Below, piece after piece: positions 11,950-43,925 of a DNA stretch of 64,000 nt (position 1 is its first letter; each line of letters starts with the position of its first letter). The notes below the pieces were generated by a model. It made no database searches, was not told the DNA's origin, and was given only the letters and a program-made list of their open reading frames with translations. This DNA is from Acidocella aquatica (GTDB taxonomy: Bacteria; Pseudomonadota; Alphaproteobacteria; Acetobacterales; Acetobacteraceae): positions 186,001 to 250,000 of the forward strand of contig NZ_BSOS01000065.1 of NCBI RefSeq assembly GCF_030160635.1. Direction: 5' to 3'. The position numbers and the translations under genes are program-made.

Positions 11950-11955
11950 AAAAAG

Positions 11956-11964
11956 TTTTCCACA
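11956..11964 (+). promoter_or_regulatory. DnaA-box-like site upstream of gcrA
   Basis: The nonamer TTTTCCACA differs from the consensus DnaA box TTATCCACA at one position and lies 90 bp upstream of the gcrA start. A single GANTC methylation site (GACTC, 11971-11975) follows it. In Caulobacter, DnaA activates gcrA transcription and CcrM methylation feeds into the same circuit, so the arrangement makes sense. A one-mismatch nonamer can occur by chance, so this is an inference from position. Confidence 0.45.
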
Positions 11965-12054
11965 GAAAAGGACTCGTGAAAGTCTCTCTAGATATTGCGG
12001 GTAAGCCTCGCCCTCTCTACTGTATTTTGTAGTTTGAGTGAGGGGAGCCACAAT

Positions 12055-12504
12055 ATGGAGTGGACGGAAGAGGCAATTGCGAAATTGCGGAGCTTATGGG
12101 CCGAAGGGCTTTCAACCGCGGAAATTGGCCGCAGATTGAATATTTCAAAAAATGCCGTGGTCGGGAAGGCGCATCGTCTGAATCTGCCGCCGCGCCCCTC
12201 GCCCATTCGCCGCCATGAGGGCGAGGCGGCGATCGCCCGCCCGGTGGTGCCCAAGCGGGTGCAGGGGGCAACGCTGCCGCCGCTTTCGGCTTCGATGTCG
12301 GTGCCGATGCCGGCGCTGCGGGCGATGATCCCGGCGGTGAAGTTCAGCCAGCGCGCAACACCTTGTTGCTGGCCGATTGGCGAGCCGGGCAAACCCAGCT
12401 TCCACTTCTGCAATGCCTCCGCGGTGACGGGCAAGCCGTATTGCGAAGAGCATGCCGCGATCGCCTATGTGCGGGTGCGCGACCGCCGCGAGGACGCCGC
12501 CTGA
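12055..12504 (+). CDS. gcrA: Cell cycle regulator GcrA
   Basis: A 149-residue transcription regulator. The N-terminus MEWTEEAIAKLRSLWAEGLS followed by AEIGRRLNISKNAVVGKAHR is the GcrA helix-turn-helix, and the C-terminal block CCWPIGEPGKPSFHFC with KPYCEEHAAIAY is the GcrA sigma-70-interaction/cysteine region. In Caulobacter GcrA works with CcrM-methylated GANTC sites to drive genes for chromosome segregation, division and cell polarity. The ATG at 12055 is chosen because AGGGGAG lies 7 nt upstream. mipZ, a known GcrA target elsewhere, lies 13 kb downstream with a GANTC cluster in front. Confidence 0.95.
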   Translation: MEWTEEAIAKLRSLWAEGLSTAEIGRRLNISKNAVVGKAHRLNLPPRPSPIRRHEGEAAIARPVVPKRVQGATLPPLSASMSVPMPALRAMIPAVKFSQRATPCCWPIGEPGKPSFHFCNASAVTGKPYCEEHAAIAYVRVRDRREDAA

Positions 12505-24645: not shown

Positions 24646-25251
24646 TCAGCCGGGTTTGGGCAGGTAGCGCCCGGCCGCGAGAAAGCCGGCGCCGGTGCCC
24701 GCGAACAGCAGGGCGAGACCGGCGATGTTCAGGCAGGCCCTGGGGTAGCCGAGCGTTGCGGCGTCGAGAAACGGGTAAGGGTAGTAGCCGCTAAGCGCGC
24801 CGTGCAGCAGGGTGTAGGCCGCGTAGACCAGCGGGCAGATGAGCCAGTAGGGGATCTGGCGGAAGCGTAGCGCTCCCTTGGGCACGAAGAGCGCCCAATC
24901 CAGCACATAAAGCGGCGGGTTGATGTCGTGCAGCTGGAAGTTCACCAACCAGTCCAGCCCGGTGAGGTGGTAGAGTTTGCGCAACAGAAAATAATACACC
25001 ACCGCGATTACGAGGATATAGACCCCGATGGCCGTGCGCACGCCGGGGCGGAGGAAAAACGCGGGCCGGGCGGCGGCTGGCAGCAGGGGCGCGGTGAAGG
25101 CCAGGGCCACGAGAAGATTGCCCCAGATGGTGAAGAAGCCGAAATAGGTGATGCTGCCGGGGAGCAGGCCCGCGTGCGAGGTGGTGAGCCAGTATTGGGT
25201 GAGCAGCGCGGACCAGCCGGAGGACGCGCCCGCAACGCGGTATAGGTTCAT
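24646..25251 (-). CDS. Pr6Pr family membrane protein
   Basis: A 201-residue membrane protein with about six hydrophobic helices. YFGFFTIWGNLLVALAFTAP, LDWALFVPKGALRFRQIPYW, and YPYPFLDAATLGYPRACLNI are the conserved blocks of the Pr6Pr (FAR-17a/AIG1-like) family, of unknown function. It stands between the converging monooxygenase gene and the divergent mipZ promoter; the ATG at 25251 lies near the first helix. Confidence 0.85.
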   Translation of the reverse strand: MNLYRVAGASSGWSALLTQYWLTTSHAGLLPGSITYFGFFTIWGNLLVALAFTAPLLPAAARPAFFLRPGVRTAIGVYILVIAVVYYFLLRKLYHLTGLDWLVNFQLHDINPPLYVLDWALFVPKGALRFRQIPYWLICPLVYAAYTLLHGALSGYYPYPFLDAATLGYPRACLNIAGLALLFAGTGAGFLAAGRYLPKPG

Positions 25252-25309
25252 GTCACCCCTCTCCTGTTTTATGCCGGTGGTATAAGGCGGCGGCGCGGCG
25301 GCGCATAAC

Positions 25310-25364
25310 GAATCCTTGGGCAGAATCGGCAGACTCGGTTAAAGGAGGATTCGAAACCCGAGTC
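25310..25364. promoter_or_regulatory. Cluster of five GANTC methylation sites upstream of mipZ, partly in a hairpin
   Basis: GANTC sites are at 25310-25314 (GAATC), 25323-25327 (GAATC), 25332-25336 (GACTC), 25348-25352 (GATTC) and 25360-25364 (GAGTC). By base composition about one per 300 bp is expected. Two lie in the arms of an imperfect hairpin (25332-25340 and 25355-25364). GANTC is the CcrM methylation site that GcrA reads in Caulobacter, where mipZ is a GcrA target, so this is probably the cell-cycle promoter of mipZ. The role of each site is inference. Confidence 0.7.
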
Positions 25365-25376
25365 GGAGAGTTGCCC

Positions 25377-26216
25377 ATGGCCAGCGTGTCTGCCCAATCG
25401 CGTCCTTATGTTATCGTGCTGGGCAATGAGAAGGGCGGCTCGGGCAAATCCACCACCTCCATTCATATCATCGTCTCGCTGCTGCGCGATGGCTACAGCG
25501 TGGGGGCCATGGACCTTGACGCGCGCCAGGGCACGCTGGCCGGCACGCTGGCGGCGCGCAAGCATTTCGTGGAAAGCAAGGGGATTTCGCTGCCGCTGCC
25601 GGAGTTCCGCTCCGTGCACCGCGCGATTTTGGACAACCGGCTGGAGGCCGAGGCCGAGGAACGCACGCGGTTTGATACGGCGTTGGGCGAGTTCGAGGGC
25701 TTGGACGTGGTGGTGATCGATTGCCCGGGGGCGGATACATATCTCTCGCGCTACGGGCATAGCCACGCGGATACGCTGATCACCCCGATCAACGATAGTT
25801 TTGTCGATTTCTCGATGCTGGCGAAGGTGGACCCGGATAACCACGATATTGTGAACCCGAGCATCTACTCGGAAATGGTGTGGGAGGCGCGCAAGAACCG
25901 CTTCTCGCGTGACCGCGGCAAGATCGACTGGATGGTGATGCGCAACCGGCTGGCGGCCTCCGAGGCGCGCAACAAGCGCGATGTGGGCGAGACGCTGGAG
26001 CTGCTGGCCAAGCGGATCGGCTTTCGCACGCTGAAAGGCTTTGGCGAGCGGGTGATCTTTCGCGAGCTTTATTTGCAGGGGCTGACGCTGATGGATGTGC
26101 GCGAGGCGAATATCGGCATCGCGCTGGGATTGTCGCATATCGCCGCCCGTACCGAGGTGCGCGCGCTGATCAGCGCCATCAAGCTGCCGCCGGCGAAAAT
26201 GTCGCTGGTGGCATGA
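25377..26216 (+). CDS. mipZ: Division-plane positioning ATPase MipZ
   Basis: A 279-residue ParA/MinD-family P-loop ATPase that forms a bipolar gradient from ParB at the origins and inhibits FtsZ assembly, putting the division plane at mid-cell. VIVLGNEKGGSGKSTTSIHI is the deviant Walker A, GAMDLDARQGTLAGTLAAR the MipZ-type switch region, and VVVIDCPGADTYLSRYGHSH the Walker B area. ATG at 25377 is used, preceded by GGAGAG at 6 nt; a TTG two codons earlier is less likely. GANTC sites in the promoter point to GcrA/CcrM control. Confidence 0.95.
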   Translation: MASVSAQSRPYVIVLGNEKGGSGKSTTSIHIIVSLLRDGYSVGAMDLDARQGTLAGTLAARKHFVESKGISLPLPEFRSVHRAILDNRLEAEAEERTRFDTALGEFEGLDVVVIDCPGADTYLSRYGHSHADTLITPINDSFVDFSMLAKVDPDNHDIVNPSIYSEMVWEARKNRFSRDRGKIDWMVMRNRLAASEARNKRDVGETLELLAKRIGFRTLKGFGERVIFRELYLQGLTLMDVREANIGIALGLSHIAARTEVRALISAIKLPPAKMSLVA

Positions 26217-43885: not shown

Positions 43886-43925
43886 ATTGGTTTAGCTTGA
43901 GTCAGGTGATTCAAGCTAAACCAAT
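43886..43925. terminator. Second perfect hairpin, 15-bp stem, 10-nt loop
   Basis: ATTGGTTTAGCTTGA (43886-43900) pairs perfectly with TCAAGCTAAACCAAT (43911-43925), loop GTCAGGTGAT. It lies 7 bp before the end of lpxB in the converging GT39/lpxB gap and could end transcripts from both sides. No strong U-run adjoins it. Confidence 0.6.

Follow-up and report, generated by a model that had tools for sequence, protein, structure and literature searches.

The five GANTC sites that crowd the region upstream of mipZ in Acidocella aquatica probably form the core of a predicted sigma-70 promoter of mipZ, in which CcrM methylation would act as the switch and GcrA as its reader; we put the probability of this reading at roughly 0.7. 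Most likely, the arrangement elaborates, within one lineage, on the known control of mipZ by GcrA and CcrM. An earlier note on this DNA had reported five GANTC sites upstream of mipZ and a gcrA gene in the same window, which is the whole 64-kb stretch of DNA analysed. We confirmed the sites at positions 25310, 25323, 25332, 25348 and 25360 as well as the identity of mipZ and the presence of gcrA. The features are given below in window positions; the -35-like element and the ribosome-binding site were read from the sequence.

12055-12504, plus strand: gcrA, 149 amino acids; PF07750, 108 bits; match to GcrA 7ye1, E 4e-21, residues 1-144
24646-25251, minus strand: divergent gene, which has its intergenic region in common with mipZ
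25310-25314: site 1, GAATC, at -30 from the first base of the putative -10, just 5' of the -35-like element
25316-25321, plus strand: putative -35-like element TTGGGC, weak, 18 bp before the -10
25323-25327: site 2, GAATC, in the spacer at register -17; the conserved site and proposed main GcrA site
25332-25336: site 3, GACTC, in the spacer at register -8, three bases before the -10; in the left hairpin arm
25340-25345, plus strand: putative -10 element TAAAGG; TA starts this element in 29 of 30 aligned promoters
25348-25352: site 4, GATTC, at register +8, over the predicted start site (about 25352)
25360-25364: site 5, GAGTC, in the leader beside the ribosome-binding site; in the right hairpin arm
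25365-25370, plus strand: putative ribosome-binding site GGAGAG, six bases before the ATG at 25377
25377-26216, plus strand: mipZ, 279 amino acids; Pfam PF09140, E 3.1e-99; C. crescentus MipZ 2xj4, E 2e-62

A consensus scan of positions 25230-25400 gave no sigma-70-type promoter, so the -10 and -35 elements were assigned from conservation. The putative -10, TAAAGG, is a poor, non-consensus hexamer, and its counterparts elsewhere in the genus are TAAACT, TATCCT, TACTCT and others. In C. crescentus, GcrA is reported to bind GANTC in its methylated form, to contact sigma region 2 and to promote the formation of open complexes (PMC7403470). In A. aquatica, GcrA on the methylated -17 site would hold sigma region 2 and assist RNA polymerase in opening the poor -10. 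We take the -17 site as the main GcrA site because this conserved site has a predicted position of -29 from the start, as in the C. crescentus promoter ctrA P1. The second spacer site, the site before the -35, the GANTC over the start and the leader site would be lineage additions, probably tuning occupancy or the response to methylation.

Both proteins are encoded in the genome. The A. aquatica GcrA gives separate matches to the structures of the DNA-binding (5yiu) and sigma-binding (5yix) domains of Caulobacter GcrA, and CcrM, on contig C67, is matched over its full length (6pbd, E 1e-142) with the C-terminal RAMA domain present. The region upstream of gcrA contains one GACTC and, at 11953-11975, TTTTCCACAG, which we take to resemble a DnaA box; this likeness recalls the control of gcrA by DnaA in Caulobacter. 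gcrA lies 13 kb from mipZ. The two genes are found on one contig in 26 genus genomes and within about 16 kb of each other in 23. Three genomes that belong to one clade (G005, G028 and G036, read by eye) have them 52-57 kb apart and a promoter without spacer sites.

The density of GANTC upstream of mipZ was compared within the genus that includes Acidocella in GTDB and beyond it, using 30 of 32 genus, 32 of 32 family, 49 of 52 class and 57 of 57 named alphaproteobacterial loci. One partial locus (L029) was omitted, as were L061-L083, many of which repeat genus and family loci. The upstream region was defined as 100 or 150 bp ending 45 bases ahead of the conserved GNEKGG motif, and it is partly coding in species with a longer MipZ N-terminus. 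Genus promoters have a mean of 2.77 GANTC per 100 bp (n=30), versus 0.53 in the family (n=32), 0.51 in the class (n=49) and 0.46 in the named alphaproteobacteria (n=57). Every genus promoter has at least one site in 100 bp; nine of the 30 have a single site and six have five. The crowding is thus present in relatives with conserved mipZ promoters, since 16 of the 30 have at least three sites. Outside the genus, at least three sites in 100 bp were found in none of 138 sequences, a total in which some genomes may be counted in both the class and the named set; L231, from the class, has three in 150 bp. Moreover, 28 genus loci contain 80 GANTC in 2.8 kb upstream of mipZ (28.6 per kb), whereas their flanks have 1.60 per kb and mipZ itself 0.72 per kb. 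Together with the low means outside the genus, this makes the density specific to both the promoter and the genus.

GcrA was found in 34 of 38 genus genomes, including all 23 of the near-complete ones, and in 147 of 150 sampled family genomes. Since gcrA is common in the family and the mipZ promoters there are poor in sites, GcrA does not require such a cluster. Despite this wide occurrence of GcrA, mipZ was matched at E <= 1e-60 in just 35 of the 150 family genomes, so that MipZ is either patchy in the family or diverged past the E cut-off. Other family genomes (e.g. loci L040, L041, L043 and L049) have in common an element resembling TTGGCATAA that contains no GANTC and lies about 40-100 bp ahead of mipZ; it is perhaps the other mipZ promoter type of the family.

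The position of the sites was examined in one MAFFT alignment, with registers counted from the TA dinucleotide common to 29 of the 30 promoters; because the promoters are phylogenetically related, the register counts that follow are not independent. The -17 site is present in one register in 22 of the 30 promoters and, given the putative -10, places a GANTC inside the -35/-10 spacer in each. Each of these 22 sites fits YGAKTCK, the published extended motif of GcrA type, on the minus strand, against a background of 10.3%. The leader site, found in 15 promoters, reads CGAGTCG in 15 of 15, which is YGAKTCK on the plus strand (background 8.8%). Fewer matches were obtained in the other registers: six of 13 at the -8 spacer site, which lies one base off in a further promoter (L021), four of 10 at +8, and two of 12 at -30, on the minus strand. 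In A. aquatica three of the five sites match the extended motif and site 1 does not. With the fixed register and the full-length GcrA and CcrM, these matches support the earlier suggestion that mipZ is a likely GcrA/CcrM target, as far as sequence can show.

A mipZ tree was built from 28 genus and six outgroup rows, in which 17 of 31 inner branches are well supported. Over the 28 genus rows it requires three changes for the -17 site and five for the -8 site. The eight promoters without the -17 site comprise a clade of four (L013, L014, L017 and L018) together with L011, L012, L025 and L256, the last of which resembles that clade and was too short for the tree. Judged from these patterns, the promoter has one fixed register, -17, and the remaining sites appear to have been gained and lost around it. 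Thirteen promoters carry both spacer sites, and among them fourfold-site identity is down to 0.27-0.86, with the middle base of each site and the intervening bases variable. The ten rows of our column table were selected because they contain both spacer sites; that choice makes GA and TC invariant, and only the middle base, the intervening bases and the flanks are informative. The pattern GANTCN4GANTCNGNTA, which was composed after the mipZ promoters had been seen, has 18 matches in the 38 genus genomes, of which 13 lie directly 5' of mipZ, one per genome. A reversed control pattern has eight matches in the same genomes, and the five matches away from mipZ are about what chance would give.

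The variable number of sites might suggest that the genus mipZ promoter is a methylation-counting switch, in which zero to four extra GANTC, lying before the -35, next to the -10, over the start or in the leader, supplement a fixed GcrA site at about -29. We consider this extension tentative and rather doubtful. If it were true, several GcrA molecules or methylation events would set a steep threshold for a division-site regulator, and the number of sites would be an evolving dial. Most of what is known of GcrA/CcrM control comes from Caulobacterales, and why GcrA activates some methylated promoters and not others is described as unsettled (PMC7987155). Within the genus, orthologous promoters with a fixed core register range from one to five sites, a natural series that would allow the number and position of methylation sites to be compared with GcrA output at a cell-division gene.

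It is unlikely, though worth weighing first among the alternatives, that a different transcription factor reads a GANTC-containing repeat and that CcrM methylation is incidental. Bases other than GANTC are indeed conserved, namely the GG between the -8 site and the -10 and the flanks of CGAGTCG in the leader, and the sites resemble degenerate copies of each other. However, the middle and intervening bases vary, and GA-TC recurs at different registers depending on the clade. The CcrM/GcrA pair is encoded in the genome, and mipZ is a known target of it elsewhere.

We regard it as quite improbable that the cluster is a protected, hypomethylated switch similar to those promoters of Caulobacter to which MucR binds. 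There are indeed GANTC-dense promoters that escape methylation, as reported for P169 with its four GANTC (PMC5172544), and the A. aquatica promoter is like these MucR-occluded promoters in having several GANTC (PMC5172544). According to the same report, P169-type promoters are kept unmethylated by MucR (PMC5172544), whereas a search for MucR (PF05443) gave zero matches in the A. aquatica genome and did match the Caulobacter control. Another protein might nevertheless do the blocking.

A neutral accident of one lineage, produced by chance and retained through shared ancestry, is very improbable as an explanation of the cluster. Five species (L001-L005) have all five registers in common, and their MipZ proteins are 95-100% identical to that of A. 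aquatica. Moreover, five sites do arise when the 125-bp intergenic region is shuffled, in seven of 100,000 trials. The recurrence of at least three sites in more than half of the genus promoters argues against an accident, as does the repeated gain and loss of sites next to a fixed one while silent divergence is close to saturation, and control words show nothing comparable. In 2000 simulated 64-kb windows (order-1 Markov), five GANTC within 55 bp occurred twice; with a mean of 190 sites, the simulated density is above the real one, which makes this estimate generous. The earlier expectation of one site per 300 bp is close to the random one, which is 191 sites or one per 335 bp in dinucleotide shuffles, but the real background is lower, with 113 sites in the window or one per 566 bp.

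The genome was surveyed over 1,019,540 of its 4,032,656 bp (25.3%), using the draft assembly G000 with 137 contigs, in which the window lies on C65. This quarter contains 1691 GANTC (1.66 per kb). The mipZ cluster is its sole instance of at least four sites in 60 bp, which bears out the impression of the earlier note that the number of sites is extreme, and six further triplets were found. Seven control words of equal make-up behaved quite differently, none exceeding four in 60 bp in the same sample. The spacing GANTCN4GANTC, with the two sites 9 bp apart, occurs in 11 pairs of the 1.02-Mb sample, where 2.8 were expected. We rejected this spacing as a general genome motif, as a dispersed palindrome accounts for three of the 11 pairs and several more fall within long open frames. 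A strict promoter pattern that demands a T at the last position of the -10 gave zero matches in the sample, mipZ included, and is uninformative because the mipZ -10 ends in G.

The palindrome consists of 17-bp arms around four bases, TTGGTTTAGCTTGAATC-NNNN-GATTCAAGCTAAACCAA, with the GANTC pair at its centre. Its copy in the window, at 43887-43924, lies between two genes. In the A. aquatica assembly there are 18 exact arm matches at 11 places; beyond the window these are on contigs C5 (four), C7, C33 (two), C67, C90 and C99. One arm match each was found in G009 and G032 and none in the other 35 genus genomes.

The earlier note had further drawn attention to a hairpin. Its arms exist as GACTCGG (25332-25338) and CCGAGTC (25358-25364), with 7 bp and a 19-nt loop, and the pair could suggest a functional DNA cruciform or RNA leader structure. 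We find such a role hardly credible. The stability of the A. aquatica fold is ordinary, with z -1.5 as DNA and -1.6 and -1.1 as RNA; taken by itself, the predicted leader is no more stably folded than its shuffles (z 0.4). The arms are longer in L005 (z -2.0), and L008 adopts an unrelated fold (z -2.9), but the stem is not kept in L002, L016 and L027, which fold differently. The left arm moreover lies upstream of the predicted start at about 25352. The 7-bp arms result from a GACTC standing near a GAGTC, because GANTC is palindromic apart from its middle base and any such pair is self-complementary. The hairpin was therefore rejected as a meaningful element. We give almost no weight to the idea that the sites serve the divergent gene and not mipZ, since that gene does use the same intergenic region in A. 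aquatica but was matched at only five of the 28 genus loci (L001 and L003-L006), and the core with its spacer site persists beside mipZ where the upstream neighbour differs.

The earlier note had supposed that the cluster could make the MipZ level a sharp sensor of fork passage, which would be a speculative role. With regard to replication timing, the C. crescentus mipZ gene is reported to be far from the origin, so that hemimethylation caused by replication lasts only a short time and does not obviously coincide with activation (PMC3667746). We searched 11 genomes for dnaA and obtained dnaA-mipZ distances for nine, two from the family, seven from the class and none from the genus. Expressed as a fraction of the half-chromosome they are about 0.17, 0.36, 0.37, 0.53, 0.83, 0.89, 0.95, 0.96 and 1.0, and thus follow no rule across these nine alphaproteobacterial genomes.

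Our literature search gave nothing that joins Acidocella with GANTC, or CcrM with Acetobacteraceae and methylation; MipZ, GcrA and Rhodospirillales do occur together in one paper. In Brevundimonas subvibrioides, mipZ is among the genes reported to be regulated by GcrA (PMC7987155), which agrees with our reading of the genus promoter. The account given there of Brevundimonas GcrA describes no preference for an extended motif, unlike what we see at the genus -17 site (PMC7987155).

A start-site study of C. crescentus reports 96 cell-cycle starts that have a GANTC in the preceding 50 bp (PMC4287350). The genus spacer site is similar to those promoters of C. crescentus in which GANTC lies between the -10 and the -35 and which fire at 40-60 min (PMC4287350). 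More than one GANTC is stated for just 11 of the 96 start sites (PMC4287350), in contrast to the genus cluster. At ctrA P1, GANTC is located at -29 from the start (-28 is also given in the text; PMC4287350), the predicted position of the genus -17 site, and a GcrA footprint covers the -35 region when the site is hemimethylated (PMC3667746). ctrA P1 differs in having one site, in belonging to another gene and in that hemimethylation is thought to activate it.

The mipZ promoter of C. crescentus itself is reported to contain two juxtaposed GAnTC, to which GcrA binds in a methylation-dependent manner, and its activity is reduced by mutation of the sites or loss of GcrA (PMC3667746). GAnTC mutation costs 60-80% of activity, a range pooled over several C. 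crescentus promoters (PMC3667746). The fully methylated mipZ probe was bound best by GcrA, and hemimethylation of the sense strand allowed better binding than that of the other strand (PMC3667746). GANTC at mipZ is conserved in five of five Caulobacterales species (PMC3973325). For the cell-cycle promoter P2 of mipZ, the entry in PMC4287350 names CtrA and DnaA motifs and not GANTC, so the mipZ architectures of C. crescentus and of the genus may not be equivalent. Overall, the two systems are alike in the gene, in the GANTC of its promoter and in the presence of GcrA and CcrM, whereas C. crescentus has two sites and the genus up to five, placed in a common register on the putative -10.
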